From the NCBI RefSeq assembly GCF_028713515.1, contig NZ_JAQTOD010000001.1, forward strand, positions 372,001-436,000: a stretch of DNA of 64,000 nt, in the 5' to 3' direction. Positions 4,752 through 43,244 of the stretch are shown here, in pieces (position 1 is the stretch's first letter; each line of letters starts with the position of its first letter). The notes beneath the pieces were generated by a model that saw nothing but the letters and a program-made list of their open reading frames with translations, did not search any database and was not told where the DNA came from. The position numbers were made by a program, and so were the translations under genes. Source of the DNA: Sulfurimonas sp. (GTDB lineage Bacteria > Campylobacterota > Campylobacteria > Campylobacterales > Sulfurimonadaceae).

Positions 4752-4760
4752 CTTCAGGCC

Positions 4761-6961: not shown

Positions 6962-6994
6962 AATTATCCTTTTTTATTAGTAAATTAAGGTGTA

Positions 6995-7000
6995 ATTATA
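6995..7000 (-). promoter_or_regulatory. Probable -10 element of the tolC-MFP-RND operon
   Basis: Read on the minus strand this is TATAAT preceded by a TG-like context and lying about 35 bases upstream of the TTG start. No consensus -35 is seen, which is common in Campylobacterota sigma-70 promoters. The assignment rests on motif and position only. Confidence 0.45.
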
Positions 7001-7160
7001 ACATATATATAGTTTTGTTATATCATAAAGATATTAACTTTTATTTTTTTACTACTACTTTTCTAAAACAGGCATTTTATAGATGAAAATCAATTATATT
7101 GTATTGACTCTTATATTAAACCTAAGCATAGATTTGCCAAGGAGCAATAAGTACTTGATA

Positions 7161-8117: not shown

Positions 8118-8233
8118 AAGTATAATTGTACTCGACCAACCTTTTATATCTAATTATTGTTGATTGCTAAAGTATAAATTAGATAAAATAAAATTCTAAA
8201 ATTTAAAAATACTCTATTAAGGCAATATATAAA

Positions 8234-8554
8234 ATGCAAATTGTTGTGGATTCCTTAAGAAAACAGGGAAAAATTTATAAAAAAATGATTGAAATTGCTC
8301 CTAAGGATTTAGGTGTAAGAAATAGAATAAAAATTTATAAAGCAACGGACATTACAGGCTATTTTTGGGCTATTTTTGCCGTTAGTCAAAAGAGTAAACT
8401 ACTTATGAAAGATTTACATAAATTTGAAGAGATATATACAAAATTAACACTTTATTGCGGACATAATTTTAAACACAAAATAATTTTTATAGATGCTCCA
8501 CTTTGCACAAAAGCCAAAGAGGCATTTTTGGCTCAAGGTTGGAAGATAAAATAA
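8234..8554 (+). CDS. Conserved hypothetical protein before coaX
   Basis: The 106-residue soluble protein is not recognised. It is rich in Lys and Ile, has a central aromatic GYFWAIFAVSQKSK, and has no signal peptide or membrane segment. Its stop overlaps the coaX start as TAATG, so the two are translationally coupled and in one operon with hisG, a methyltransferase gene and thiS. The overlap suggests a real gene, possibly a small adaptor or regulator, but no function can be given. Confidence 0.75.
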   Translation: MQIVVDSLRKQGKIYKKMIEIAPKDLGVRNRIKIYKATDITGYFWAIFAVSQKSKLLMKDLHKFEEIYTKLTLYCGHNFKHKIIFIDAPLCTKAKEAFLAQGWKIK

Positions 8555-9171
8555 TGCTTCTTTGCGATATTGGAAATACCTCTGTACATTTTTTTGATGG
8601 AAGCAGAGATTACAAAGAGAGCGTTACTTCATTTGGCCCATCTGTAATTACAGAAAAAATTTACTATATTTGTGTAAATTCCAATTTAAAAAGCAGAGTA
8701 AAATTTTTAGAAAATTGGATTGATTTGTCACTGTATATAGATACATTAAAATACTACAAGGGTATGGGGATAGATAGAGTTGCGGCGTGTGAGGCAATCC
8801 AAAATGGCATAGTTGTAGATGCTGGAAGCGCTATTACTGTAGATCTTGTAAAAGATGGGATTTTTCAGGGCGGATTTATATATCCTGGGGTTAAAGCTAT
8901 GGGTGAGGCTTACAAAAATATATCAAGTGCGCTTGAGTGCTCATTTAATTTTGAGCTTGATTTAGATAAAATGCCAAAAAACTCGCAAGACGCTATAAGT
9001 TATGGATTTATAAAAACACTTTTTGTTGAAGTGATGTCGCACAATATGGAGATTTACCTGACTGGTGGATATGCAAAAGAGTTTAGTAAAATATTTAAAA
9101 GCGCATCTGTTGATGAGTTATTGATATTTAAAGGTATGAAAAATATTATGAAAAAGGCTAATTTATGCTAA
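8554..9171 (+). CDS. coaX: Type III pantothenate kinase
   Basis: Phosphorylates pantothenate, the first step of coenzyme A synthesis. The 205-residue protein opens with LLCDIGNTSVHFFDG (phosphate-binding DxGNT), has GMGIDRVAAC and VVDAGSAITVDLV (the second ASKHA phosphate motif), and GGFIYPGVKAM, all hallmarks of the CoaX family. I chose the ATG at 8554, overlapping the previous stop as TAATG. An in-frame ATG 51 bases upstream would add residues not found in the family and would run through the preceding gene. It overlaps hisG by seven bases. Confidence 0.93.
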   Translation: MLLCDIGNTSVHFFDGSRDYKESVTSFGPSVITEKIYYICVNSNLKSRVKFLENWIDLSLYIDTLKYYKGMGIDRVAACEAIQNGIVVDAGSAITVDLVKDGIFQGGFIYPGVKAMGEAYKNISSALECSFNFELDLDKMPKNSQDAISYGFIKTLFVEVMSHNMEIYLTGGYAKEFSKIFKSASVDELLIFKGMKNIMKKANLC

Positions 9172-9791
9172 GAGTTGCACTTCCAAAGGGTCGTATTGCA
9201 AAAGAGACTTTAGAGATTTTTGAGACTATTTTTGGTGATAGTTTTGCTTTCGATGATAGAAAATTAATACTAGATACTCCAAATTTTCGTTTTTTGCTTG
9301 TGAGAAATCAAGATGTAGCTACTTATGTCTTTCATCAAGCAGCAGATATTGGTGTGGTTGGGCTCGACACGCTGGAAGAGCAGGGACTTGATGTTATTCG
9401 CCTTTTAGACCTAAAGCGTGGCGTTTGTAAAGTTGCTATTGGTATGAAAAAGGGTGAAAAACTTGATCTTAATAAATCTGAAATAAAAGTAGCAACAAAA
9501 ATGGTAAATATCACGAAGCGCTACTTTGAAGAGCGTGCTGTTTCTGTAGATATTATAAAGCTTTATGGTTCAATAGAGCTTGCACCGCTAATTGGACTCG
9601 CTGATATGATAGTTGATGTTGTAGAAACTGGTGCTACTATGGAGCAGAATGGCTTAGAGGTTGTGGAGGATATTATGAGATCTTCAACTTATCTGATTGC
9701 CAATAAAAATAGCTATATTGCAAAAAAAGATGAAATTTTAGACATATATAAAAAGATAGAAACAGTTATAAAAGCAGAGCAAAAAGAATAA
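9165..9791 (+). CDS. hisG: ATP phosphoribosyltransferase, short form
   Basis: Condenses ATP and PRPP in the first committed step of histidine synthesis. At 208 residues it is the short HisG form: it starts MLRVALPKGRIAKETLE, contains ADIGVVGLDTLEEQ, and ADMIVDVVETGATMEQNGL binds PRPP. It lacks the C-terminal regulatory domain of the long form, and family knowledge says short HisG needs a HisZ partner, which is not in this window. It overlaps both coaX (7 bases) and the methyltransferase gene (1 base). Confidence 0.95.
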   Translation: MLRVALPKGRIAKETLEIFETIFGDSFAFDDRKLILDTPNFRFLLVRNQDVATYVFHQAADIGVVGLDTLEEQGLDVIRLLDLKRGVCKVAIGMKKGEKLDLNKSEIKVATKMVNITKRYFEERAVSVDIIKLYGSIELAPLIGLADMIVDVVETGATMEQNGLEVVEDIMRSSTYLIANKNSYIAKKDEILDIYKKIETVIKAEQKE

Positions 9792-10474
9792 TGACAAATT
9801 TAGACCTTTATGCAAAAACCGAACATCTTTTAGGCATAGAAGAGGCGACTGAGGCTCTTTATGATCTTTATCGCTCAGAATTAGACGAGTATGGCATAAA
9901 AACACTTTTAGATGTTGGATGTGGTCGTGGCGGTTTTATGAAGCGTATGATTAGCGATGGTGTTAAATGCAAAGGGATTGATTTAAGTGCTGTTATGGTT
10001 GAAGAGTGCAAGGAACATGGCTTTGATGCTGAGTGTTTGGATGTAAGCAAAGTTGATGGAAAATATGATGCAGTTGTCGCGATATTTGATGTACTAAACT
10101 TTTTAAATGAAGCGGAGTTGTTGAAGTTCTTAGATGCAGTTGCAGATAAACTAAATGAGAGTGGAGTTTTTATGGCGGATATAAACACCCTTTATGGCTT
10201 TCGTGATGTCGCTGAAGGCACAATGAGTAGTGAAAATGATAAAGAATTTTTAGTAGTAGATGCTCTGTTTGAAAACGATGAGCTTCATACAAAATTTACT
10301 TTTTTTGAGAAAAATCAAGATGCTTCGTACACAAAATATCAAGACACAATTATTCAGTATTATCATAAAATCAAAGTCTTCGAGAAGTTATCGGCGTTGA
10401 AGCTTGTAGAAAAGCAGACTTTTTCTCTCTACGATACAAAAGATAAAACACTATTGATTTTTAAAAAAAATTGA
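9791..10474 (+). CDS. Class I SAM-dependent methyltransferase
   Basis: The 227-residue protein has the Rossmann motif I LLDVGCGRGGFMKRM at about residues 39-53, motif II GIDLSAVMVEECKE, and motif III around DAVVAIFDVLNFL. The C-terminal part is beta-rich, as in small-molecule methyltransferases. It sits between hisG and thiS with a one-base overlap. The substrate is unknown; nothing nearby fixes it. Confidence 0.85.
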   Translation: MTNLDLYAKTEHLLGIEEATEALYDLYRSELDEYGIKTLLDVGCGRGGFMKRMISDGVKCKGIDLSAVMVEECKEHGFDAECLDVSKVDGKYDAVVAIFDVLNFLNEAELLKFLDAVADKLNESGVFMADINTLYGFRDVAEGTMSSENDKEFLVVDALFENDELHTKFTFFEKNQDASYTKYQDTIIQYYHKIKVFEKLSALKLVEKQTFSLYDTKDKTLLIFKKN

Positions 10475-10493
10475 TTCCATTTAAAGAAGAGAT

Positions 10494-10694
10494 ATGAAGC
10501 TAATAATTAATGGTGAACAAAAAGAGTTTGAGGATGAACTAACTTTGGGCGAAGTCCTAAGAGAGTTAGGGCTTGTTGATAAAGTTATGGCGGCGGCTGT
10601 TAATATGGAGATCGTAAAGCAAAAAGAGTGGGATAGTTACCCAATGAGAAGTGATGATAAATTAGAACTGCTAGATTTTGTTGGAGGCGGTTGA
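10494..10694 (+). CDS. thiS: Sulfur carrier protein ThiS
   Basis: The 66-residue beta-grasp protein ends in FVGGG with the terminal Gly-Gly that is adenylated and thiocarboxylated to donate sulfur to the thiazole ring of thiamine. The start [12 protein letters not shown] and the body [11 protein letters not shown] are typical of ThiS. It is preceded by an AAGAG Shine-Dalgarno. Its last 24 bases overlap the 3' end of acpS on the other strand. Confidence 0.9.
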
Positions 10695-11036
10695 TTCTAT
10701 TGCCACAACGGCTATTGCATACTCTCCATCGTGAGTTATTGATAAACTAATATCTTTAATTTTAAAATTTTCTACAACTCTTTGTGATAGAGATATCTTT
10801 GGAGCACCTTTTTCTGTTTTGTAAATTTTAATATCATAAAAACCACATTCAGAACCAATCCCAACTCCAAGAGCTTTGGAGCACGCCTCTTTTGCTGCCC
10901 AAAATCCAGATACTGTTTTATGATTTTTGATTAAAGTTATTTCGTCGCTTGAGAGAAATTTTTGAAGAAATTTTTGCCCAAATCGCTCTAAAGAACGATT
11001 TATGCGAGAGGTTTTTACAAGATCTATCCCAATCAT
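10671..11036 (-). CDS. acpS: Holo-[acyl-carrier-protein] synthase
   Basis: Transfers phosphopantetheine from CoA to acyl carrier protein. The 121-residue protein carries the two family signatures: [12 protein letters not shown] at the N terminus (Mg-binding Asp) and [19 protein letters not shown] (the WAAKEA motif), followed by [17 protein letters not shown]. It lies immediately after fliL, with the fliL stop and acpS start adjacent, and ends inside thiS on the opposite strand. Confidence 0.93.
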
Positions 11037-11612
11037 CTACTGGATAACGAATTCCGTAAAATATATACCTTTTATGCTTCCATCTACAATCATAGAATTA
11101 AGCGTTTCAATGATTTGATCTGAGACTTGCTGTTTACCTTTTTTTGAAGAGATCTCTTCAAGTGTTTTTGATGATAAAATTCTAATGATTCTATCTCTTA
11201 AAACTGCAGTTTTTGTCTCTAGCTCTTTATCAAGCTCCTTGCCATCTAGCTCTAATGAGATAGCTGCTTTGAGATATCTTCTGCCATCTTCGCTTTTTAA
11301 GTTTACAGTAAATGTCTCTAGTGGATACAGAGTGCCTATTTGACTTAGTTTTCTTGATTCCACATCTTCTGAGCTTATTTTTGGTTTGCTTGGTGCAGGG
11401 TTTTCTGATCCATGAGATGCACTCTGCTCTGTAGCTGGATGAGTACCTTTGGTGTTTACATCTTCTCCATCATGACTCATTAAAAGAACTGCTACAACGG
11501 CACCTGCCACTATTATTAACACCAATACAGCTATGATAATTATCATCAGCATATTTGATTTTTTTACTGTTTTTTCTGATGCTTCTTTACTTTCTTTTTT
11601 TTCTTCTGCCAT
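11037..11612 (-). CDS. fliL: Flagellar basal body-associated protein FliL
   Basis: The 191-residue protein has a short charged cytoplasmic N terminus, one transmembrane helix (about residues 21-46), a low-complexity periplasmic linker, and the FliL domain (YPLETFTVNLKSEDGRRYLK to the C-terminal IKGIYFTEFVIQ). FliL associates with the stator around the flagellar motor. It forms a pair with acpS, an arrangement I recall from other Campylobacterota. Confidence 0.92.
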   Translation of the reverse strand: MAEEKKESKEASEKTVKKSNMLMIIIIAVLVLIIVAGAVVAVLLMSHDGEDVNTKGTHPATEQSASHGSENPAPSKPKISSEDVESRKLSQIGTLYPLETFTVNLKSEDGRRYLKAAISLELDGKELDKELETKTAVLRDRIIRILSSKTLEEISSKKGKQQVSDQIIETLNSMIVDGSIKGIYFTEFVIQ

Positions 11613-11656
11613 TTTTTTTCCTTATCTTGTGTTTTTAATATATCAGAAATATTTTT

Positions 11657-11917
11657 TTAGTTGCATTTGTCAATGTTAAGAGTTTTCATTATCTCTTCAA
11701 AGATGGCACCAGCTTCACGGTTTGGATCATTATGATATTCTATTACAAGAACTTCTCTCCCGTTAGATATGCTACATGTATACATCTCTGGTTTTAAAGT
11801 ATGCTTTGCAACAATGGAGTCAATTGTAGAGCAGACAAGCTTACTCTCCTCTTCCCCTCTATATGCTATGGATAATTTGACAAACTTTTCTTCACTTCTA
11901 AACTCAGCATCTATCAT
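11657..11917 (-). CDS. Hypothetical protein upstream of fliL
   Basis: The 86-residue soluble protein is not recognised. Two short beta-rich stretches (KFVKLSIAYRG, REVLVIEYHND) flank a helical region, and the last residues include a lone Cys. It is 44 bases upstream of fliL on the same strand and likely co-transcribed. It resembles small conserved Campylobacterota proteins without assigned function. Confidence 0.7.
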   Translation of the reverse strand: MIDAEFRSEEKFVKLSIAYRGEEESKLVCSTIDSIVAKHTLKPEMYTCSISNGREVLVIEYHNDPNREAGAIFEEIMKTLNIDKCN

Positions 11918-11980
11918 CTCTATTCCCTTTACTCATTAATATTGAAAATTATACAATTAATATATAAAATATCCCGTAAT

Positions 11981-12066
11981 GAGTTGCTATTTGCGCTAGG
12001 TTTGATTAGTTAAGTAATCAAACAAATATAATTTATGGTTGACGCAACACCTAGCAATATTTTTTA
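11981..12066 (+). ncRNA. Structured intergenic element, possible small RNA
   Basis: The spacer 11918-12302 holds no ORF of note. In it a perfect 9-bp hairpin (12000-12008 with 12015-12023, loop GTTAAG) is nested beside a longer-range pairing, GCTAGGT at 11995-12001 with ACCTAGC at 12049-12055, which is followed directly by AATATTTTTT. A stem followed by a T-run looks like an intrinsic terminator, so a short plus-strand transcript could end near 12066. An AT-rich stretch upstream could hold a promoter. No known RNA family is recognised, and the call is an inference from folding potential. Confidence 0.3.
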
Positions 12067-12204
12067 AAATGAAATGCTCCTCTACCTCGTTGAATATTTA
12101 ACAAGCAAAGTATATTGTATATCATAAATAATGTATAGTTATTTACTTGTGATTAAGATATTTATTTATGTGATTTAACTACCTTATATACAGTATTTTA
12201 TCAT

Positions 12205-12274
12205 AAGTATAGTAATTTAGTCATGAACAACACAACAATATCGCTTGACATTGTTGTGTTAATTTACTATACTT
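12205..12274 (+). promoter_or_regulatory. Sulfur-operon promoter inside nested inverted repeats
   Basis: A near-perfect sigma-70 promoter is present: TTGACA (12245-12250), 17-base spacer, TATACT (12268-12273). It is wrapped in two nested inverted repeats: inner arms AACACAACAAT (12229-12239) and its complement (12250-12260), and outer arms AAGTATAGTAA (12205-12215) and its complement (12264-12274). The inner right arm starts at the last base of the -35 and fills most of the spacer; the outer right arm covers the -10. This is the layout expected of a repressor operator, or of a site that extrudes or folds. The start codon of the first gene is 30 bases downstream. Confidence 0.75.
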
Positions 12275-12302
12275 TCGCTCAATTATATAAATGGGAGACG
12301 AA

Positions 12303-12749
12303 ATGAGACAAATTAAAAATAAAAGATTGAACATAGTTGATGAAAATCAGACTCGCATACATGCTACGCTGGTAATTTTTTTAATAGGTATTTATCTATT
12401 TATTGGGGATATCTCTATTATTTATATCTTAATTTATGATTTTTTTGTGCGTATCTATGTAGCACCTTTTCTTAGTCCCTTGTACATAATATCCTTGCAG
12501 GTAGTAAGGTTGATTGGGTTAAAGCAAAAACCTGCAGATGAGCTAGCCAAAGAGTTTGCGTCGCATATTGGACTGACAATACTGTTTATTATTTTATTTG
12601 CAGAATATTTTAGAGAGACTCATATCTCTTTTTTGTTGATTGTGGTTTTTGGTATTTGGAAAGCAGTTGAGATAATAGATAGCGAGTGTGTAGCGTGTAA
12701 GTTTTATGAGTTGCTAAAACATAAAGGTATCGAGGTGGTGTCATTATGA
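12303..12749 (+). CDS. DUF4395 membrane protein, first gene of sulfur operon
   Basis: The protein has about 148 residues, three to four hydrophobic segments, and the C-terminal SECVACKFYELLK that matches the conserved CxxCK motif of DUF4395 proteins. Such proteins are often found next to thioredoxin-like or sulfur-metabolism genes; their role is unknown, and the two Cys suggest thiol chemistry at the membrane. I start it at 12303 because GGGAG lies five bases before that ATG. The in-frame ATG at 12291 has no ribosome binding site. Its stop overlaps cysK (ATGA). Confidence 0.8.
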   Translation: MRQIKNKRLNIVDENQTRIHATLVIFLIGIYLFIGDISIIYILIYDFFVRIYVAPFLSPLYIISLQVVRLIGLKQKPADELAKEFASHIGLTILFIILFAEYFRETHISFLLIVVFGIWKAVEIIDSECVACKFYELLKHKGIEVVSL

Positions 12750-13669
12750 GATACGCAAAAGATGTAACGGAGCTTATCGGAAATACTCCTTTGGTTAAAC
12801 TAAAAACTGCTAGTGAGTATGCACTTATATTAGGTAAGTGTGAGTTTATGAATCCAACACACTCCATAAAAGACAGAATTGGAAATAATATGATTCAAGA
12901 GGCGTTAAAACAGGGACTCATTACTGAAAACACAACAGTTATTGAAGCAACTAGCGGAAATACAGGAATTGCAATAGCGAGCGTATGCGCAAGTTTGGGG
13001 TTGAAGCTTATTTTAACTATGCCCGACTCAATGAGTCTTGAGAGAATTCAGCTTTTAAGGGCATTGGGAGCTAAAGTTGTTTTAACGGAAGCCAAATATG
13101 GAATGGTTGGTGCGGTTGACATGGCTGAAAAAATTGCTGCAGAGCTAGATTGCAGCTTGATTCTTAGGCAGTTTTCTAATATGGCAAATCCTGATATACA
13201 TAGAAAAACAACAGGACTAGAGATACTAAAAGATACGGATGGAAAAATTGATATTTTAGTTGTGGGCGTTGGAACTGGTGGCTCGATAACCGGAATAGGA
13301 AGCGAGTTAAGGGCATATAATCCAAATATTGAAATAATTGCAGTGGAGCCAGAAAACTCAGCTGTGCTCTCAGGAGAGGAAGTTGGTTCGCATAAAATAC
13401 AGGGAATTGGTGCAGGATTTATTCCAGAAGTGTTGAACAGTGCTATTTATGATGAGATAATAAAAGTGAGCGATAAAGATGCAATCAATACCTCAAGAGA
13501 GCTAGCAAAAAATGAGGGGCTTTTAGTTGGTATATCTTCAGGTGCTAATGTGTTTGTATCTGCGCTGGTCGCCAAAAGAGCCGAAAACAGATTTAAGACA
13601 ATTGTTACCATCCTGTGTGATACTGGAGAGAGATATTTAAGCTCTGGATTATATGACAATAAAGGATAA
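12746..13669 (+). CDS. cysK: Cysteine synthase (O-acetylserine sulfhydrylase)
   Basis: Makes cysteine from O-acetylserine and sulfide using PLP. The 307-residue protein shows the PLP-lysine motif NPTHSIKDRIG, the substrate loop EATSGNTGIAIA, the phosphate-binding VGVGTGGSITGIG, and the C-terminal LVGISSGANV and CDTGERYLSSGLY. The Lys motif has THS where the family usually has GGS, so substrate preference could differ somewhat (CysM-like). It overlaps the DUF4395 gene by four bases and is followed after six bases by the DUF2061 gene, so it uses sulfide made by the downstream enzymes. Confidence 0.93.
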   Translation: MRYAKDVTELIGNTPLVKLKTASEYALILGKCEFMNPTHSIKDRIGNNMIQEALKQGLITENTTVIEATSGNTGIAIASVCASLGLKLILTMPDSMSLERIQLLRALGAKVVLTEAKYGMVGAVDMAEKIAAELDCSLILRQFSNMANPDIHRKTTGLEILKDTDGKIDILVVGVGTGGSITGIGSELRAYNPNIEIIAVEPENSAVLSGEEVGSHKIQGIGAGFIPEVLNSAIYDEIIKVSDKDAINTSRELAKNEGLLVGISSGANVFVSALVAKRAENRFKTIVTILCDTGERYLSSGLYDNKG

Positions 13670-13674
13670 TCAAA

Positions 13675-13905
13675 ATGCAAGAAAAAGCATATAGGTCCAT
13701 TGTAAAAACTGTTTCATGGAGAGCGGTTGGAACGCTTGATACGATGGTTATATCTTATCTTGTTACAGGCAGTCTTAAAATGGCTGCATCAATCGGCTCT
13801 ATTGAGCTCTTTACAAAAATGATTTTGTACTATTATCATGAGAGAGTATGGAATAAAATAGGTCTTGGAAGATACAAGGCAACGAGCAATGATTACAGTA
13901 TTTAG
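13675..13905 (+). CDS. DUF2061 small membrane protein
   Basis: The 76-residue protein starts with the family signature KAYRSIVKTVSWRAVGTLDT, followed by two hydrophobic stretches and YYYHERVWNKIGLGR, diagnostic of DUF2061. Members are repeatedly found in assimilatory sulfate operons between cysteine genes; their function is unknown. The stop is 10 bases before the cysH start. Confidence 0.88.
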   Translation: MQEKAYRSIVKTVSWRAVGTLDTMVISYLVTGSLKMAASIGSIELFTKMILYYYHERVWNKIGLGRYKATSNDYSI

Positions 13906-13915
13906 GGAACATATT

Positions 13916-14626
13916 ATGAAAGAAAATATAACAACATTTATTAAACAATTTGAAGGATATTCAGCCAGAGAAACTCTAGAGATGTTTTTAAAAACCTATA
14001 AGGGTCAAGTCTCCTTTTCAACAAGTTTTGGAGCCGAGGATCAAGTGCTTACAGATATGATATTTAAGATTGATAAAGAGGTGAGTATATTTACTCTTGA
14101 TACAGGAAGGCTTCCGCAATCGACATATGATGTTATGGGTAGCACAAACTTAAAATATAACAGAAAAATAACTGTCTATTTTCCAGAGAGCAAAGATGTA
14201 GAAAAGCTATATTATGAGCAGGGAGCCAATGGATTTTACGAATCAGTTCAAAACAGAAAAGAGTGCTGTTATGCTAGAAAAATAGCACCTCTAAAGAGAG
14301 CTTTAAATGGTGTTGATATTTGGATTACAGGACTTAGAGCCGAACAGAGTGTTACGCGTGAAGAGATGCGTCTTTTTGAGTGGGATGAAGGAAATGCTCT
14401 CATTAAATTTAACCCTTTAGTTTCGTGGAGCGAGAAGGATGTTTGGGAATATATCAAAAACAACAAAGTTCCATATAACGCTCTGCATGATAAAGGGTAT
14501 CCGAGTATAGGATGCGAACCTTGCACAAGAGCTGTAAAAGAGGGCGAAGATATACGAAGTGGAAGATGGTGGTGGGAAAACTCACGGCACAAAGAGTGCG
14601 GACTGCACATAAAGGATAAAAAGTGA
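13916..14626 (+). CDS. cysH: Adenylylsulfate (APS) reductase, assimilatory
   Basis: Reduces APS to sulfite using thioredoxin. The 236-residue protein has the PP-loop-like [13 protein letters not shown] (32-44), LDTGRLPQ, the Cys pair ECCYARK (C117-C118), GCEPC (C200, C203), and the catalytic C-terminal ECGLH (C228). The CC...CxxC set binds the [4Fe-4S] cluster that marks APS rather than PAPS reductases, consistent with no cysC kinase in the operon. The start at 13916 follows AGGGA by seven bases; the longer in-frame start at 13865 lies inside the preceding gene. Confidence 0.93.
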
Positions 14627-15534
14627 TAGATACAAAGAGATTGACACATTTAAAACAGCTAGAAGCGGAATCGATTCATATACTCAGAGAGGTGGTAGCG
14701 GAATTTGACAATCCCGTGATGATGTACTCTGTGGGCAAAGATTCCGCCGTGATGCTCCATCTCGCACTCAAAGCTTTTTTTCCGGCAAAACTGCCGTTTC
14801 CGCTTCTGCATGTAGATACAAGATGGAAGTTTAAGGAGATGATAGAGTTTCGTGACAAAAGAGCCAAAGAGGAGGGTTTTGAGCTTCTAGTTCATACCAA
14901 CCCCGAGGGTATAGAGAAGGATATAAATCCATTTGTTCACGGCTCAGCAGTTCATACTGACATCATGAAAACGCAGGCTCTTAAACAGGCTCTAAACAAG
15001 TACAAGTTTGATGCGGTATTTGGGGGAGCAAGACGAGATGAGGAGAAGTCTAGAGCAAAAGAGAGAATCTACTCATTTAGGGATAAAAACCACAGATGGG
15101 ACCCAAGAAATCAGAGACCAGAACTATGGAGTTTGTATAATGCAAGAGTCCATAAAGGTGAGAGCATAAGGGTTTTTCCGCTATCAAACTGGACGGAACT
15201 TGATGTTTGGCAGTATATTTATTTAGAGGGGATTTCTATTGTTCCTCTTTATTTTGCAAAAAAAAGAGCAATCGTTGAAAAAGACGGAGTCAAGATAATG
15301 GTGGATGATGAGAGAGTGCCAATTGAAGATGGCGAGGTCATCAAAGAGGAGATTGTTCGCTTTAGAACTTTGGGGTGTTATCCTCTAACTGGAGCGGTTG
15401 AGTCAAATGCAAAAACTTTGCCGGAGATTATTCAAGAGATGCTTTTAACGAAGACTAGCGAGAGACAAGGACGAGTTATAGACAATGATTCTAGTGGTTC
15501 AATGGAGAAGAAAAAAATAGAGGGGTATTTTTAA
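14623..15534 (+). CDS. cysD: Sulfate adenylyltransferase subunit 2
   Basis: Catalytic subunit that makes APS from ATP and sulfate with CysN. The 303-residue protein has the PP-loop [42 protein letters not shown], and [12 protein letters not shown] near the C terminus, all conserved in CysD. The start is GTG, overlapping the cysH stop by three bases. cysN follows after one base. Confidence 0.95.
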
Positions 15535-15535
15535 C

Positions 15536-16942
15536 ATGTCAGTTTTAGAGACAAAAATAGCAGAGGATATTGAGAGCTATCTCAAAGAACATGAGAATAA
15601 AGAGCTTCTTAGATTTATTACGAGCGGAAGTGTTGATGATGGTAAAAGTACGCTAATTGGGAGGCTTTTGCATGACTCAAAGATGATTTTTGAAGATCAG
15701 CTAGCAGCCATAAAAAAAGATAGCAAAAAAAGCGGTACAACTGAGGGAGAATTTGACCTCTCGCTTTTGGTTGATGGTTTACAGAGTGAACGAGAGCAGG
15801 GGATTACTATAGATGTTGCGTACAGATATTTTACAACTGATAAGCGAAAATTTATCATCGCAGATACCCCTGGGCATGAACAATACACTAGAAATATGGC
15901 AACGGGTGCGAGCACGGCGGATTTGGCGATTATTTTAATAGATGCAAGATACGGGATTCAAACTCAAACTAAAAGACACTCTTTTATAGCAAAATTGCTT
16001 GGGATTAAACATATAGTAGTTGCCGTAAATAAGATGGATTTGGTCGGTTTTAGTCAAGATGTATATGAGAAGATATCAAGAGACTATCTCTCTTTTGCAA
16101 AAGAGCTTGGGCTTAGTGATGACATAACGCTTATCCCTCTCTCGGCACTTAATGGTGACAATGTAGTTGATAGGAGTGAAAAATCTCCATGGTACAAAGG
16201 CGAGACACTTTTGCATCTGCTAGAAAACATAGAGATAGGAAGTGATAGAGATTTAGTTCACTTTAGAATGCCGGTTCAGTATGTAAACAGACCAAACCTT
16301 GATTTTAGAGGCTTTTGCGGAACTATCTCTTCGGGTGTTGTAAGTGTCGGCGACAATATTACGGTTTTGCCTTCAAAAAAGAGCTCAAGGGTAAAAGATA
16401 TAGTGACCTATGATGGGAATTTAAATTACGCATACGCTCAGCAGGTAGTTACGATTATTTTGGAAGATGAGATAGATGTAAGCCGAGGTGATATCATAGT
16501 AAAAAGCGATGAACAGCCAGATAGCAGTGATACATTTGATGTAAATATTGTCTGGATGAGTGAAGAGCCACTGCTAAAGCATAAACAGTATTTTATAAAA
16601 AGGGCTTCATCTTTGAGTGTTGGAAGCATAGATAAGTTTTACTACAAAACAGATGTAAACACTCTTGAACAACAGAGTGCAAACCTGCTAAATCTTAATG
16701 AAATAGGACATGCAAAACTTGATTTGCAGAGTGCTTTGGCTTATGACTCGTATAGCAAAAACAAGGTAATGGGAAGTTTTATAGTCATTGACAGAGTTAC
16801 AAATAATACTGTTGGAGCTGGAATGATTGTGCAAAAATCAGAATATAACGCAAAGGTTTCACAGTTTAGTGAGTTTGAAGTTGAGTTAAATGCACTGGTG
16901 AGAAAACATTTTCCTCATTGGCAAAGCAGAGAGGTTTTTTAG
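15536..16942 (+). CDS. cysN: Sulfate adenylyltransferase subunit 1 (GTPase)
   Basis: GTP hydrolysis by CysN drives APS formation by CysD. The 468-residue protein has EF-Tu-like GTPase motifs: [16 protein letters not shown] (G1), [13 protein letters not shown] (G3), VNKMDL (G4) and the later SAL (G5), then beta-barrel domains. No APS kinase (CysC) domain is fused to the C terminus, in keeping with direct APS reduction by the upstream CysH. Confidence 0.95.
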
Positions 16943-28679: not shown

Positions 28680-29705
28680 TTAAACAATATCCTCTATTCT
28701 TCGATTGTGTGCATTTGCAAACTTTTTAATTTCATCAAAAATTTGTGTAGCTAATTTTTCATCATTTCGAACTCTAATATGTGGAATATATTTCAAAATA
28801 GTTGGGATAACATCTTGGTAATATTTATTACTAGACTTTATCTCATAAACTATATATTTAATATCTTTATCATACTTTTCATCTTTTATTAATTCATATT
28901 CGTCAGTTTTTCTCCATCCGCTAAAATACGGTGCTCTTTTGATATAATCTTCCAACCAATTAACGACTAATAATTCTATAGTTTCACTACCATCATCAAC
29001 ACTAAAAAAAGCGTTCATAGCATTCTTTAACTCTTTCTCTGTTTTATAAAAATCATACTTATATGTGTCATCTAGTATTTCAAGATCTCTTATATTTGCT
29101 ATCGTAAATGTTTTTACTTTATTCGTCATTTCTGGCTTTTTCTTTATTTCAATCCAATATTCTGAATAATCTTCATATCCCAAGATATACCAATAGTATT
29201 CAAGATTAATAATCTTGTATGGATACATAACTATGTATCCGTCATTGTTCTTAAATTTTATTTTTCTTTTCTCTTCTATAGCATATTTTAATCGAGCAAA
29301 AACTATTTCCAAATCATCATCTATCTTTTCTAATACATCTTGTTTAAAAACTGATGTTTTAGTTCTCTTTACATAATTATCAACAATAATATCAACCCAA
29401 GGGGCAAGTTTTTCCCCAAAAGATTTTCTATTCCGTAAAATACCTGTTAATACCACAGTTTCTTCTGGCGTAAGTAACATTTTTTCAAGAAACGATGGTT
29501 CAGTGCGTACCCACTTACCTGTGCCTTTGTCAGGTTCAAAGAAATGTTCATAAAATGTTTCTCGGACATCTTTAAGTCTTTCCTTAAATGATGATTCTGA
29601 CACATTATATTCTTTTGAAATGTCACTAGTAGATATAGCTTCATTATTGGATAATCTTCTTATTACATCAGGTATAACTTCTTCAGCTTTCTTCTTTTTT
29701 GTCAT
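28680..29705 (-). CDS. WYL-domain transcriptional regulator (CapW/BrxR-like)
   Basis: The 341-residue protein has an N-terminal HTH (ISTSDISKEYNVSESSFKERLKDVRE), a central WYL domain (residues about 130-230, with YPYKIINLEYYWYILGYED) and a C-terminal WCX-like extension. Proteins of this kind (CapW, BrxR) repress anti-phage operons and release them on a nucleotide or nucleic-acid ligand. It is transcribed away from the DUF1508/E2-E1/JAB operon, and inverted repeats lie between them. Control of that operon is inferred from this layout. Confidence 0.87.
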   Translation of the reverse strand: MTKKKKAEEVIPDVIRRLSNNEAISTSDISKEYNVSESSFKERLKDVRETFYEHFFEPDKGTGKWVRTEPSFLEKMLLTPEETVVLTGILRNRKSFGEKLAPWVDIIVDNYVKRTKTSVFKQDVLEKIDDDLEIVFARLKYAIEEKRKIKFKNNDGYIVMYPYKIINLEYYWYILGYEDYSEYWIEIKKKPEMTNKVKTFTIANIRDLEILDDTYKYDFYKTEKELKNAMNAFFSVDDGSETIELLVVNWLEDYIKRAPYFSGWRKTDEYELIKDEKYDKDIKYIVYEIKSSNKYYQDVIPTILKYIPHIRVRNDEKLATQIFDEIKKFANAHNRRIEDIV

Positions 29706-29804
29706 AGTCTACATCCATAATATTAGTTTATTTTAAAGAGTGACATTGTATTTTGCAACATTTTAAAGATTCATACAATAATTTTGCTATCTTTAACAAT
29801 CTTG

Positions 29805-29872
29805 TATTCTACAGTATTATGGGCATTAAAACAATATAGCCGAAAATTATCGGCCCTGCTCAATGTAGAATA
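29805..29872. promoter_or_regulatory. Inverted repeats between the WYL gene and the E2-E1 operon
   Basis: TATTCTACA (29805-29813) and its exact complement TGTAGAATA (29864-29872) flank a quasi-palindrome GCCGAAAATTATCGGC (29839-29854). The group lies in the divergent promoter region, so these are candidate WYL-protein operators. The central one is unusually GC-rich for this spacer. Confidence 0.55.
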
Positions 29873-29955
29873 TAGGTGTGGAATAGTAAGTTCACAAAGT
29901 AAAGTAGGTGCACTTTTATGTGTTAACAATATGTTCTAATTTAAAAGGAGTCGAA

Positions 29956-30387
29956 ATGGCTGAGGACAAAAAAAATGGATACTATGTTTTAACAAAAAAT
30001 ATAAATGCCACGCAACCGTATCGCTATGTGCTTAAAGCACCAAATCATGAAACTATATTAAGTAGTGAAAATTATACAACAAGTAGAAATGCTAGAAATG
30101 GTATAGAGTCAACAAGAGTTAATGGAATAGTTGAAGAACATTTTGAAAAACGTACTTCTAAAGCAGATGAACCATACTTTGTATTAAAAGCAACGAATGG
30201 CGAAATTATAGGTGTTAGCGAAATGTATAGTAGTACTAACGCTTGCGAGCATGGTATCAAAGCAGTTATCAAATATGCAGCACAAGCAAGTTTAGTGGAT
30301 GAAACAGGTTCAGATGGTGATAATGGTAGTGAAGGACCAGTAATTACCAACAACCCTGTAAGAAGTAAAAGCAATAAGTATGCCTAA
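29956..30387 (+). CDS. Tandem DUF1508 protein with flexible tail, first gene of E2-E1/JAB operon
   Basis: The 143-residue protein has two DUF1508 (YegP-like) repeats: residues about 9-55 (YRYVLKAPNHETILSSENY) and 73-108 (YFVLKATNGEIIGVSEMY). A roughly 35-residue Gly/Ser/Asp-rich tail follows, ending SKSNKYA. The start at 29956 has AAGGAG five bases upstream; a longer in-frame start at 29908 has none. Its stop overlaps the E2-E1 gene by eight bases. In type II CBASS the protein whose C terminus is conjugated is encoded just before the E2-E1 gene. This protein occupies that position and has a suitable disordered tail, so it is the candidate substrate. That role is inferred. Confidence 0.8.
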   Translation: MAEDKKNGYYVLTKNINATQPYRYVLKAPNHETILSSENYTTSRNARNGIESTRVNGIVEEHFEKRTSKADEPYFVLKATNGEIIGVSEMYSSTNACEHGIKAVIKYAAQASLVDETGSDGDNGSEGPVITNNPVRSKSNKYA

Positions 30388-32068
30388 CAAGAAACTTACT
30401 GTATTTCAGAAGTCAATAGAAGGATACCTTCTTGAAGAAGGATTCTCAAGAGTTGAGCCAGCATTAGCTGGACAACTTCTTATGAGAGGTAAAATCGTAA
30501 CAAAAAATAAAGAGTTTGATACATTAATAGAGGTTCCAAGTGATGTCCCTGCAAGCCATCCAAAGTTTTATACTATTAATAATGATATGGTGTTTTATCA
30601 TCCACATATTGAAAGACCTAAAAAGGAAGATATTGGAACTTTAACGGGAATGTGTTTTCAAAAAGAAAATGAAAAGCTTTATTGCAATAACTCCCAGGAG
30701 CTAATTCATCATGCATATAATAAATATGAGAAATTATGTATTGATTTATCTGATGATGTATTTGATAAAAAAAGAGACTTCTTAGAAGAATTTGATAGTT
30801 ATTGGCCACGAAGCATCAATCTAGATATATTTATGCATATTGATACTAAACCAAAAGATAGAAGTATGTTGTCATTAGTAATATTAAAATCCGATGATGA
30901 ACAACAGCAGGCTATTCTCTATGATGATATTCATGTAATTGATAAATATGTAGAGTTTTCTAAGTACGATGTAGTGAATAAGCTTATATGCCCATATATT
31001 GATATTGGAAGTCATTTTTCTTTGCCATTTCCATCTACTTATAAAGATCTAATGAGATTGTTTTACAAAAGTGGACATGTAAAGTTCTTAAAAAAGTTAC
31101 AAAGCAACCAAAATATTTGGAGCGTATTGATTATAGGACTTGATTTACCCAATGGAGAAAAACATTATGCTGCTGTTAGTTTATTAGATATTAAAGACGA
31201 AAAGTTAATTGAGAAAAAAAGTAAATATCAAGTTTTCTTTACAAAGAGGTATGAGAATATCCATTTTAAAGGAATAAATATTAAATCTATATTGAGGAAA
31301 TGGTTGATGCAAAGAGGTGGTAATGATAGCACAAGACATATTGCAGAAAATAATTTTACTGTTGCAATTTTAGGATGCGGCTCAGTTGGTAGTAACTTGG
31401 CTTATAAGTTATGTAAAAGTGGGATAAGTAATATTATCTTGGTTGATCCACATGAATTAAAAAGTAGTAATATCGGTCGTCATTTTCTAGGAATTAGTGA
31501 AGTGGGAAAAAAGAAGGTTGTTGCTATGCAAACAGTCTTACAGTCGCAGTTTATTGATATGGATGTAAAAGCAATAGACAAAAGTGCTCAACAGTGTATA
31601 GATGAGTTCTCAAGTGCTGATTTAATAATTGGAACCATTGGAAGTGATGAACCTTCAGTTGAACCATATCTTGCAGAATTAACTATACGAGATGAGCTAT
31701 CACCGATGTTTATATGTTGGCTTGAGGCAAATGCTGTCGCTGGTCATGGATTTTATGTAGATCAAAAAATAGTATCGAACTCATATGAACAAAAGACAGA
31801 AGACATGAGTATCTTAATTCAAGATTTTGCTTCTGGTTTAATACAGAATGAAGTAGGTTGTAATTCAGATTATATGCCATATTCACATTTATCCGCTGAT
31901 GAACATATAAATAAGATGGCTCAATTTGTAGTTGATATAGCTTTGGATAAGAGACTAAGTAGAGCCATTAGTTCATATGGGAATGTAACACAATATAAAA
32001 ACGAATTGCTTTATCAAGCTCAATCAAATAGTGTTAAATATTGGAATGATGATGACTTTGAAATTTAA
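30380..32068 (+). CDS. E2-E1 fusion conjugation enzyme (Cap2-like)
   Basis: The 562-residue protein fuses an E2-like domain (residues about 1-150), a linker domain and a ThiF/E1 adenylation domain. The E2 part has HP at 60-61, HPHI at 74-77 and GTLTGMC with a candidate catalytic C92, matching the HPNI...GxxC order of ubiquitin E2s. The E1 part has GCGSVGSN (332-339) for ATP, D356, N364 and R367, and C446 in FICWLEA as candidate catalytic Cys, with C494 near PYS as in Cap2 relatives. Cap2 enzymes link a CD-NTase C terminus to target proteins. No CD-NTase is encoded nearby. The gene overlaps both neighbours, so the three proteins are made together. Confidence 0.86.
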   Translation: MPNKKLTVFQKSIEGYLLEEGFSRVEPALAGQLLMRGKIVTKNKEFDTLIEVPSDVPASHPKFYTINNDMVFYHPHIERPKKEDIGTLTGMCFQKENEKLYCNNSQELIHHAYNKYEKLCIDLSDDVFDKKRDFLEEFDSYWPRSINLDIFMHIDTKPKDRSMLSLVILKSDDEQQQAILYDDIHVIDKYVEFSKYDVVNKLICPYIDIGSHFSLPFPSTYKDLMRLFYKSGHVKFLKKLQSNQNIWSVLIIGLDLPNGEKHYAAVSLLDIKDEKLIEKKSKYQVFFTKRYENIHFKGINIKSILRKWLMQRGGNDSTRHIAENNFTVAILGCGSVGSNLAYKLCKSGISNIILVDPHELKSSNIGRHFLGISEVGKKKVVAMQTVLQSQFIDMDVKAIDKSAQQCIDEFSSADLIIGTIGSDEPSVEPYLAELTIRDELSPMFICWLEANAVAGHGFYVDQKIVSNSYEQKTEDMSILIQDFASGLIQNEVGCNSDYMPYSHLSADEHINKMAQFVVDIALDKRLSRAISSYGNVTQYKNELLYQAQSNSVKYWNDDDFEI

Positions 32069-32540
32069 TACAAACAACTTGGATATTAATATCAATCAAA
32101 GTTTCCTAGATGTCTTACCTAAATACTCACAAACTTTAAAAACACCAGAAAGAGGAGGAGTAATTATGGGCGAGCTATACCCAAACAAAAACTTAGTAGT
32201 AATAACTAATATTATTGAATCACCATCAAAGTTAAAACGTAATAATAGATATGAAATGGATGTAAAATATATTCAAAAAGAGATTAACAAAATCTGGAAA
32301 AAAAGCAAAGGTACTGTTACTTACCTTGGTGACTGGCACACACATCCAGAAATTAATCCAAAACCATCACTAATAGACTATTACACTTTTTCAAAAAATT
32401 ATTTTAATTCATCAATTGATCAAAACTTTTTAATCTATATTATTTTGGGGCTCAAAGTTAAAAATGATATTTTAATTTGGATAGGAGTATGTAATGGCAT
32501 TAAGACAAAAAGAAAGTTTGGAATGTCCCCTATAAACTAG
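32052..32540 (+). CDS. JAB/MPN isopeptidase (Cap3-like)
   Basis: The 162-residue protein has the JAMM zinc-protease signature: E33 in PERGGVIMGE, then H96 and H98 (GDWHTHPE), S106 and D109 (KPSLIDYY). Cap3 proteins of type II CBASS cut the bond made by Cap2. Three consecutive ATGs at 32046, 32049 and 32052 are possible starts; the last is best spaced from a GGA. It overlaps the E2-E1 gene by 17 bases. Presence of a deconjugase supports a reversible protein-modification system. Confidence 0.88.
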   Translation: MTLKFNTNNLDININQSFLDVLPKYSQTLKTPERGGVIMGELYPNKNLVVITNIIESPSKLKRNNRYEMDVKYIQKEINKIWKKSKGTVTYLGDWHTHPEINPKPSLIDYYTFSKNYFNSSIDQNFLIYIILGLKVKNDILIWIGVCNGIKTKRKFGMSPIN

Positions 32541-36490: not shown

Positions 36491-37708
36491 ATGGGAAGTG
36501 ACTTAAAACAAATTGCAGAGAAACTTAAAGATGCAGTTCATAAAGTTGATAAACAAGAAGAAAGGTCTTATAGTCTTAAAGCCCAATTAATTTATGCTTT
36601 CAATGGTACTGGGAAAACAAGACTTTCAAAAGAATTTAAAGAATTAATTGCTCCTAAAATAGAAGATAGTGAAGAGGGAGAAGCACTTACAAAAATTATT
36701 TATTACAATGCTTTTACTGAAGATTTATTTTATTGGGATAATGATTTGAAAAATGATGATAAAATAAAATTAAAAATACATAATAATGCATTTACTAAAT
36801 GGGTTCTAAAAACTCAAGGAAATGCAAATAATATAATAAAAAACTTTCAACGATATATCAATGATGACAAATTAACACCACAATTCAACGAAGAATATAC
36901 AATAAGAGATGAAAATGACAAAGAGGTTATTATACCAGCTTACTCGGAGGTAACTTTTTCATATGAAAGAGGAGATAATACTAGCTCTAAAAATATTAAA
37001 ATATCTAAAGGGGAAGAAAGTATTTTTATTTGGAGTATCTTTTACTCATTCATTAAGCAAATTATTTTAGAGTTAAATATTTCTGAAGTTAGTGAACGTT
37101 CTACTAATGACTTTGATAATATGGAATATATTTTTATAGATGACCCTGTAAGTTCTTTAGATGAAAACCACTTAATTGATTTAGCTATTGACTTGTCAAC
37201 TTTAATTAAGGATGATACCTCAAATATTAAATTTATTATAACTACACATAATCCTCTTTTTTATAATGTTCTTCATCATGAATTAGATGGGAAAGAATAT
37301 AAAAAGTATATTTTAAATAGATTAGAAGATAGAAGTTATATATTAAAAAAACAGCAAAATGATTCTCCATTTGCTTATCATCATTATCTTATAAAAGAAA
37401 TTGAAAAAGCAATTGAAACAAAAGATATTCGTAAATATCATTTTAATTATGTCCGAAATATATTAGAAAAAACTGCTACATTTTTTGGTAAAAATGGCTG
37501 GGGAAAATTATTGCCTATGGATCCTGATAATAATGATGAAAATGTTTATGCAAGAGTTATTAATCTTTATAGTCATTCTAAACTCTCTAATGATGAAATT
37601 ATTGACGTTGAAGAGCGTCATAAACCAACTTTAAAATTTTTACTTTCTCATATCAAGAAATTATATGAACCTGACTTAACGGATAGTTCAAGTAAAAAGG
37701 ATAGTTAA
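36491..37708 (+). CDS. prrC: PrrC-type tRNA anticodon nuclease
   Basis: Latent nuclease that cleaves tRNA-Lys at the anticodon when a phage disables the neighbouring restriction enzyme. The 405-residue protein has an ABC-type ATPase half: Walker A AFNGTGKT (36-43), ISKGEES signature (171-177), Walker [16 protein letters not shown] (213-227) and the TTHNP switch. The C-terminal half has R322, E326 (RNILE) and H362 (YSHS), at nearly the positions of the R320-E324-H356 catalytic triad of E. coli PrrC. Its place between hsdS and hsdR is the arrangement of the E. coli prr locus. Its stop overlaps the hsdR start as TAATG. Confidence 0.9.
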
Positions 37709-40889: not shown

Positions 40890-43244
40890 ATGGAAGAATT
40901 AAAAAAAGCGATAATAGATAATTTATATAAATCAAACTTCTATGAAGCATTAATAAATATCCAAAAATTAGAAACTAGTTTTCCAGATGCTCAAGAAACT
41001 TTATTTTTATATTATTATTTATATGATTTAATGAGCTGGGTTAGCCATCATAAAAAACATAATTCTAAGAGTACAATACAAAATAATAAAGACAAATATT
41101 TCAATCAAATACTGCAAATTAACCAAAATAATAGATCGATAACTTATTTTCAATTATATTTATTTTTAGAAGAAAATTTTAGAACTTTTGAACATTTCTC
41201 ATGGTTTAGTAGATATGGTAAATCTAAATACTTATTAGATCAAGCATTAAAAGAAAATCAAGATAATCTTGAAACACAATTTTATAGTCTTTTTTGTGAA
41301 GAAAAAACAAAAGAATGTTTTGAATTTTTGAGTAAAAACATACTAGATACTCAAATCGTACAAAAGTTTCTTAATAATCTTTGGTTTAAAGATGAATTTT
41401 TAGATGATTCTCAACAGCTCAAACAACTATATGGTCTTGGTTCAGAACATACTGATTTATTCTACTATACACAAAAAAAAGATTACAACTGGTTATATGA
41501 TTATTTTAATGAAGATGAAGAAAGAAAATATAAAACCAACTCTATTTCTTATGGAGAAGTTTGTTTTGAAACTAAAAAGTATGATGAAGCAATCAAATAC
41601 TACGAAAATAAAGATGACAAAAGCAATAATGACTATTTTATATTAGGTGAATGTTATGAGCAACAGGATGAAAAAGAAAAGGCAATAAATTGCTACAAAA
41701 ACTATTATACTAATTTTAGTTCAGGAAATTGGCAAGTTGGTATTAAAAAGCTTTTTAAACTTCAAGCTTATGATGAAATAAAATATGTACTGAAAACTGA
41801 AAAGTCTAATCTTCATAAAGAGTATAAAATATTTTATGAGGCAAAGCTATTAAGCATTGAAAAAAAATATATAGATAGTATAAATACTCTCAATGGTATT
41901 TTTGACAAACTACATAATCATCATGAAGAATTGAAAAAAGATATTTATTTTTTGTATATTTCAAATTATTATAAAGAAACGATGAAGGCGATAGAACAAT
42001 CCTATCATGAGATTATTGAATCAAATGATTTTGAACTAAGTGGACCAAGATTTCTTTTCGGTTTTGATTATCATCACTTGTCTTTATATCGTGATTTTGA
42101 AAAATATATTAAAAAGTTAAATATTGAATTTGATAATAAGTATTACAAACTTACAGAACAGTGTAGAAAAAGGATAAATAATAGATTTATAGAAGTACAT
42201 AAAAAGTTATATAGTGAAATACAAATAAGAAAAATAAACATTACTGAAGATAGAGAGCTTTATTACTTATCAGCTTTTGAGGATTTAGATTCTATAAATA
42301 AAAGAATCAGTATTTTTAAGAATAGAATTAAAAATGAAGCAGAAAATCCAAGATATTATTTAGAACTTGGTAAGTTACATTATAAAAAAGTAAATCTAAC
42401 AAAATATAATTTCAAAAAAGCAATTAAATATCTTGAAAAATCAATTGAATTGGCAGAAAAATATTTTGTAAATCTTTACGGTGAAGCTGAATTATTATTA
42501 GTGAAAATAAAAGAATCCAAAGAAGATAAAAAAGCTTTATTTGACAAAAGTATAAAGGATTTTATATTTTACAATTCGTATCAAAAAGATTCTAGAACAA
42601 TGTTTTTTGCACAAACTTTATATAAATATCAAAGTTTTTCTATAAATGGATTATCTGGCTTGTCAGAGAATTATTTGTATTTTGCAAATCCTGATCAACT
42701 AAATGATCCCTTTGATGTTGCATCAGAATCTTTGGAAAAACAATTTAAAAACTTGAAGTTAAACAAGAATGATTTTAAATTATGTTCTTTGTCTCAAATA
42801 AATGACAATAAACTAATGTGGTCACATTACACGCAAGAGCATACAGGGATATGTGTAGGGTATAAATTTTTATATTTGCCATATTATGTCGGAAAAGATG
42901 AAGTGAAGTATAAAAATACTAACTTAGACGAAAAAGAAATATTTGATAATATCATCGAATATTGGACTGTAAAATCAGAAGATTGGGAATATGAAAAAGA
43001 AGTGAGATTATTACATTATGGTGAGAAACAAAAAATATTCTATACTTTTGATATTAATGAAGCTCTTGAAAAAAATATAATTGCATTACAAATTGAGTCT
43101 ATAACTTTTGGTTTAAAATTCCAGAATAAAACTATTTTAAAACCAATAATTTTAGAAATAGAAAAAAAACAAAATAGAAAAATTAATTTTTTTAAAGCAA
43201 AAATATCTGAGCAGAAATTAATTATAGAAAAAGTTGAAATATAA
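40890..43244 (+). CDS. TPR-repeat protein with C-terminal DUF2971 domain
   Basis: The 784-residue protein has an N-terminal and central array of TPR-like helical repeats (for example AIKYYENKDDKSNNDYFILGECYEQ, AIKYLEKSIELAEKYF) and a C-terminal DUF2971 domain from about residue 570: LYFANPDQLNDPFDVASES, KLCSLSQINDNKLMWSHYT, HTGICVGYKF, and WEYEKEVRLL. DUF2971 proteins are often found in defence islands but the biochemical role is not established. It lies 48 bases after hsdR and before mrr, so it may be part of the defence block. Confidence 0.78.
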   Translation: MEELKKAIIDNLYKSNFYEALINIQKLETSFPDAQETLFLYYYLYDLMSWVSHHKKHNSKSTIQNNKDKYFNQILQINQNNRSITYFQLYLFLEENFRTFEHFSWFSRYGKSKYLLDQALKENQDNLETQFYSLFCEEKTKECFEFLSKNILDTQIVQKFLNNLWFKDEFLDDSQQLKQLYGLGSEHTDLFYYTQKKDYNWLYDYFNEDEERKYKTNSISYGEVCFETKKYDEAIKYYENKDDKSNNDYFILGECYEQQDEKEKAINCYKNYYTNFSSGNWQVGIKKLFKLQAYDEIKYVLKTEKSNLHKEYKIFYEAKLLSIEKKYIDSINTLNGIFDKLHNHHEELKKDIYFLYISNYYKETMKAIEQSYHEIIESNDFELSGPRFLFGFDYHHLSLYRDFEKYIKKLNIEFDNKYYKLTEQCRKRINNRFIEVHKKLYSEIQIRKINITEDRELYYLSAFEDLDSINKRISIFKNRIKNEAENPRYYLELGKLHYKKVNLTKYNFKKAIKYLEKSIELAEKYFVNLYGEAELLLVKIKESKEDKKALFDKSIKDFIFYNSYQKDSRTMFFAQTLYKYQSFSINGLSGLSENYLYFANPDQLNDPFDVASESLEKQFKNLKLNKNDFKLCSLSQINDNKLMWSHYTQEHTGICVGYKFLYLPYYVGKDEVKYKNTNLDEKEIFDNIIEYWTVKSEDWEYEKEVRLLHYGEKQKIFYTFDINEALEKNIIALQIESITFGLKFQNKTILKPIILEIEKKQNRKINFFKAKISEQKLIIEKVEI

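Follow-up and report, generated by a model that had tools for sequence, protein, structure and literature searches.

A YegP-fold DUF1508 protein with a flexible tail as the likely substrate of a Cap2/Cap3-like conjugation operon in Sulfurimonas

This study revealed, in a 64,000-nucleotide stretch of Sulfurimonas sp. DNA (the window; contig NZ_JAQTOD010000001.1, positions 372,001 to 436,000), an operon in which a small DUF1508 protein precedes a Cap2-like E2-E1 fusion and a Cap3-like JAB peptidase. DUF1508 is likely to be the protein that is adenylated and then conjugated via its C-terminal alanine, replacing the cGAS/DncV-like nucleotidyltransferase (CD-NTase) of type II CBASS (cyclic oligonucleotide-based antiphage signalling system). 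An initial annotation of this region had described a WYL regulator divergent from DUF1508, E2-E1 and JAB genes, and all four genes were found to be present and intact:

28680..29705, minus strand: transcription regulator with a WYL domain (PADLOC match; Pfam match under its cut-off), transcribed away from the operon
29706..29955: intergenic regulatory region common to the WYL gene and the operon
29956..30387, plus strand: DUF1508 protein, tandem YegP fold and C-terminal tail, 143 residues, C-terminus RSKSNKYA; proposed conjugated protein
30310..30384, plus strand: codons of the disordered tail (DUF1508 residues 119-143), an overhang present only in E2-E1-linked copies
30380..32068, plus strand: Cap2-like E2-E1 fusion, 562 residues, with domain, PADLOC and fold matches; overlaps the DUF1508 gene by 8 nucleotides
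30653..30655, plus strand: codon of C92, the E2 cysteine invariant in the alignment
31859..31861, plus strand: codon of C494, the E1 cysteine (GCNS) invariant in the alignment and likelier to be catalytic than C446
32049..32540, plus strand: Cap3-like JAB/JAMM peptidase (longest open reading frame from 32031), with Prok-JAB and PADLOC JAB matches

The DUF1508 protein matches its Pfam domain with 108 bits in two copies. Its most likely start is the ATG at 29956, which lies behind a AAAAGGAG ribosome site and yields a protein beginning MAEDKK, rather than the GTG at 29908 (open reading frame 29908-30387). In the AlphaFold model, residues 8-118 adopt a confident YegP fold, with Z-scores of 18.4 to E. 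coli YegP (PDB 2K8E) and 17.0 to 2K49, and residues 119-143 are predicted to be disordered (predicted local distance difference test, pLDDT, below 50). The model agrees with the tandem DUF1508 protein with a flexible tail proposed earlier, which ends in NKYA.

This tail was found to be confined to copies linked to an E2-E1. With tail length taken as the number of residues past the end of the DUF1508 domain model, linked proteins carry tails of 21-41 residues, and all six end in R or K followed by YA (SNKYA, SNRYA, AGRYA, AGRYA, EKRYA and AKRYA). For comparison, 32 distinct unlinked DUF1508 proteins were collected from Campylobacterota, plasmids and viral contigs. Thirty-one of them stop within three residues of the domain end, the single long one has a 62-residue extension ending in RYK, and an RYA end occurs in none. 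The Fisher p value for the RYA end, with five linked lineages counted, is about 2e-6, which is nominal only as the lineages are related. The sharpest control is locus L124 of genome G798, where a close DUF1508 relative (138 bits) stands divergent to a regulator of the same type; E2-E1 is absent there, and so is the tail. A terminal alanine or glycine by itself was discarded as a discriminator, since some unlinked YegP proteins also end in A or G; the tail does discriminate.

With regard to the E2-E1 fusion, matches to ThiF (E=1.3e-16) and to the PADLOC E1-E2 model (E=1.5e-53) were obtained, and the best fold match is the E. cloacae Cap2 solved with CdnD02 (Foldseek E 2e-19). Residues 5-557 of the single chain align with this Cap2 (Z 20.9, 482 residues), and the E1 domain also matches the BubCD fold. 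Four features do not vary across the 13 aligned homologues: C92, H76, the GCGS loop and C494. Among the motifs named in the initial annotation, C92 and the GCGS loop thus hold, whereas C446, its choice of E1 cysteine, was rejected: it is not conserved in the CBASS relatives, and the alignment makes C494, kept in 13 of 13, the likelier catalytic residue. The JAB protein matches Prok-JAB (1.4e-8) and PADLOC JAB (6.5e-33), and its JAMM motif is as complete as had been reported, with E-GG, HTHP and SxxD intact and the conserved E, HxH, S and D residues kept. It scores 72.6 bits against the NCBIfam Cap3 equivalog model, under the cut-off of 200.

In the E2-E1 tree, the DUF1508-linked proteins form one clade (support 84/89, and 100/100 against the Campylobacterota CBASS group). 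Its neighbours are Campylobacterota CBASS Cap2 proteins and one protein from Macrococcus, so that, on these sequences, the nearest relatives of the linked E2-E1s are true CBASS Cap2 proteins. The CD-NTases encoded in the neighbouring Campylobacterota CBASS operons end in SGRQA, SGRMA and SERQA, and that of Macrococcus in NRHYA. In CBASS, a CD-NTase terminating in G or A has been found only where the operon also has full Cap2 and Cap3, and conjugation and thioester formation depend on this terminal residue (PMC10097602). A third type of head is found on an Aeromonas salmonicida plasmid (L095), where a protein scoring 318 bits as a 6A-MBL enzyme ends in PAYA. Three unrelated heads (CD-NTase, metallo-beta-lactamase (MBL) and YegP) thus occupy one slot and all have a tail with a small residue at its end, as would be expected if this slot is that of the substrate. 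The initial annotation had held that C-terminal variation among DUF1508 homologues next to Cap2, together with their replacement by unrelated proteins, would speak against a substrate role. Unrelated heads do occur, but they share the A/G C-terminus, and their replaceability therefore points to a common role as substrate. Not all CBASS heads of the plasmid sample have such an end: three carry a few residues past an SSA-like motif (L092, SESASEER; L096, SNSAKEV; L097, SAFDYEF), and these CD-NTase ends perhaps need trimming by Cap3.

Profile searches showed that the gene set is not peculiar to the window. The order DUF1508, E2-E1, JAB recurs in an Aliarcobacter cryaerophilus plasmid (L003), in a related metagenome-assembled genome (MAG; L037), and in L035 (G369), L058 (G430) and L059 (G526); in L059, the third open reading frame (3436-4176) occupies the JAB position and is a putative JAB gene. 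The window lineage and four further Campylobacterota lineages possess the ordered set with no adjacent CD-NTase, and the conservation elsewhere that had been set in advance as a test was observed. Every DUF1508-headed copy has a divergent regulator and the same 8-nucleotide overlap between DUF1508 and E2-E1. WYL matches were also obtained for the regulators of L035, L037, L058 and L059; the divergent gene of L003 is a relative of the L037 regulator with no Pfam WYL match of its own. Genomic contexts vary, one copy lying on a plasmid and another within an island by which comM is interrupted. In a sample of 397 genomes of the class Campylobacteria, DUF1508 is present in 13 and a full-length Cap2-like E2-E1 in 4, two of the latter headed by DUF1508 and two by a CD-NTase. 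Given that both genes are rare, yet two of the four E2-E1s have DUF1508 directly upstream, the pairing exceeds chance. The DUF1508-headed form was found in 3/104 and 2/228 genomes of the family samples; one extra family and an order-wide sample yielded no further locus.

The absence of a nucleotidyltransferase and an effector, noted initially, was confirmed. Two cyclase models, which recovered the CBASS cyclases of G319 and G031 as positive controls, found no CD-NTase anywhere in the genome of the window (G000) or in G430 and G526. Within the completeness of the assemblies, a cyclase acting in trans is thus not a general requirement, although G369 and G398 encode one elsewhere in the genome, unlinked to the operon. 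No gene for a nucleotide-activated effector is present in the window operon, the JAB gene being followed by resolvase and type I restriction-modification genes.

The following course of events can be proposed. The E1 domain would adenylate the alanine that ends the flexible tail of DUF1508 and then hold DUF1508 as a thioester, probably on C494. DUF1508 would be handed to C92 of the fused E2 domain, which would join it to amino groups of target proteins, and the JAB enzyme could undo the attachment or release stalled enzyme. The WYL regulator probably keeps the operon down until stress, for example DNA damage or phage infection, and the system as a whole probably acts in defence induced by stress. 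Since the operons lack both a cyclase and an effector gene common to all of them, DUF1508 once attached is probably the active component, like the protein attached in bacterial ISG15-like conjugation (Bil), and not a sensor producing a nucleotide signal. Whether its attachment constitutes the act of defence or regulates something else is an evenly balanced matter.

Several observations weigh against this interpretation. In all DUF1508 copies, the TAT-GCN codons for the terminal YA contain the ATG of E2-E1, and part of the conservation of these two residues may therefore reflect the overlapping start codon. A pure start-codon artefact is disfavoured by the preceding R or K, which falls outside the overlap and is encoded by AGA, CGT and AAG, and by the Campylobacterota CBASS heads, which end in A with no codon overlap with E2-E1; the 21-41-residue extension likewise lies outside the overlap. 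In addition, members were found only in Campylobacterota. Beyond this phylum, the searches extended to plasmids, viral contigs, one other phylum and, for DUF1508 only, phages, and a genome-contig scan with narrow patterns gave two loci only. Finally, all the linked E2-E1s appear to trace back to a single origin, and the copies do not appear to be five independent inventions. A possible spread to a further phylum was discarded: L036 (JAGNSM010000159.1) is assigned to a Fusobacteriaceae MAG, but this 4.5-kb contig hardly differs from the Aliarcobacter operon and is probably misbinned. No E2-E1 was found in viral contigs by single-protein and profile scans, and neither E2-E1 nor JAB lies near any of the 13 viral YegP loci found with the DUF1508 profile.

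DUF1508 might instead serve in the stress response or as an effector without being conjugated, and only happen to be encoded in this operon, the substrate of E2-E1 and JAB being encoded elsewhere. Tail-free DUF1508/YegP genes, with E2-E1 missing from their surroundings, are indeed found next to divergent WYL-type regulators in L124 (4361-5787, G798) and on the Marinobacter plasmid L042 (2603-4291), which hints at a more widespread pairing of WYL with YegP in stress or defence. Moreover, 57 cases are published in which capK-capS come before a YegP gene (PMC13373217). The tail-free copies end at the domain, however, and the tail appears only alongside E2-E1; together with the constant 8-nucleotide overlap and the three genomes that gave no CD-NTase match, this makes such an explanation unlikely. 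The same tail-free genes beside WYL-type regulators and after capK-capS suggest that YegP has a stress-linked activity, which conjugation then targets or fixes in place.

It is quite improbable that the module acts through an unlinked or neighbouring effector under the control of DUF1508 conjugation. One candidate would be the zinc-dependent phospholipase C (Zn_dep_PLPC) that, with a small lipoprotein-like gene, comes after JAB in the Aliarcobacter copies only (L003, 7179-8513; L037, 7648-8984). This pair is a possible local effector, but neither gene was found beside the other copies, the flanks of which differ. A degenerate type II CBASS, with its cyclase lost and DUF1508 inserted by chance, is highly improbable and largely refuted already. 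It would fit the nesting of the linked E2-E1s among CBASS Cap2 proteins, and G418 does hold one broken CBASS E2-E1 copy. Nevertheless, the conserved cysteines, the ATP-binding loop and the reading frames are intact in five lineages, and the E2-E1s, at 29-37% identity to the window copy, are too divergent for decaying remnants.

Among known systems, the operon stands close to type II CBASS, with which it shares a fused E2-E1 with Cap2 fold and catalytic cysteines, a JAB with JAMM motif, and a head gene just upstream whose flexible tail ends in a small residue. It differs in having neither CD-NTase nor effector gene and in its tandem YegP head. As the defining cyclase is absent, we have chosen to regard the DUF1508 set as a variant within Cap2/Cap3 conjugation and not as CBASS. 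The 6A-MBL anti-phage operons (Iyer 2006, row 6a; NCBIfam NF058523/NF058524) likewise combine E2-E1 and JAB with a non-cyclase head, which ends in YA in the Aeromonas example, but this head is a metallo-beta-lactamase and E2-E1-JAB is usually one fused protein. The MBL model, which scored the L095 head at the 318 bits given above as a positive control, did not match the window DUF1508, and the window proteins reached 50.7 and 57.8 bits against the 6A-MBL cap2_3 model (cut-off 320). In Bil, E1 and E2 are distinct proteins and the modifier has a ubiquitin fold. Bil also relies on a small protein that is proposed to be joined to targets and to constitute the active component; in contrast, the window E2-E1 is one fused chain, and its modifier has the YegP fold, as assigned by structure (Z 18.4) and Pfam (108 bits), and not the ubiquitin-like beta-grasp. 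The Bub pathways (BubA, BubB, BubCD) share the E1 conjugation logic and the BubCD fold of the E1 domain, but structure titles show BubC joined to BubD with BubB separate, whereas the window has E2 fused to E1 and JAB separate. They are often under WYL (CapW) or CapH+CapP control (PMC13373217). Stand-alone YegP/UPF0339 proteins (PDB 2K8E, 2K49) have the tandem DUF1508 fold but no tail.

NCBIfam (June 2026) contains Cap3 and 6A-MBL models and none that fits the DUF1508-E2-E1-JAB set, and PADLOC matched only the enzyme parts and the WYL gene. A full-text literature search, with many subscription papers outside its reach, returned no account of YegP/DUF1508 with E2-E1/JAB. A small YegP/DUF1508 protein has acquired a flexible tail and is probably tagged onto other proteins in the place of a signalling enzyme. 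There is about an even chance that it represents a third class of Cap2/Cap3 head, a YegP modifier with no ubiquitin fold and no nucleotide signal, whose attachment to phage or host proteins is the defence, and that a portable E1-readable tail moves between CD-NTase, MBL and YegP heads. If so, the Cap2/Cap3 machinery would be a general conjugation cassette taking unrelated proteins with a suitable tail. It would also give a first testable role to YegP, a widespread protein whose structures are solved and whose function has so far been unassigned, and it raises the question of whether bacteria can be protected by covalent attachment in itself, with no cyclic nucleotides involved.

The window WYL gene scores 17.4 bits with Pfam WYL, under the Pfam cut-off, and E=7e-13 with PADLOC WYL; among solved structures, no match to one named CapW was obtained. 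Palindromes in the intergenic regions are AT-rich and unconvincing, so that no operator could be assigned, and promoter-like matches in 29706..29955 show no excess over shuffled sequence. The setting of the operon is a defence island: AbiE genes lie upstream, and 3' of JAB come the resolvase, type I restriction-modification genes that include a PrrC-like one, and a nuclease of the Mrr type. The PrrC-like (anticodon nuclease) gene lies at 36491-37708, between HsdS- and HsdR-like genes.

Further observations concern relatives of the operon and neighbouring genes. The L035 island (1556-15918, G369) carries tyrosine recombinases, a PHP-AAA protein and the DUF1508 operon, and splits comM into ChlI and Mg_chelatase halves; a target-site repeat was sought there and none was found. 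The L095 operon (1674-5080) is of the 6A-MBL type with E2-E1 and JAB as separate genes, and its MBL head is annotated 'CobQ'. The DUF1508 model also matches residues 616-1161 of PDB 7b5h chain AD, from the baseplate of an Anabaena contractile injection system (Z 7.7, 103 residues), and YegP-like folds may occur in phage-tail-like machines. Adjoining the Mrr nuclease of the window, 40890-43244 encodes a TPR-DUF2971 protein of 784 residues that matches the PADLOC candidate family PDC-S31.

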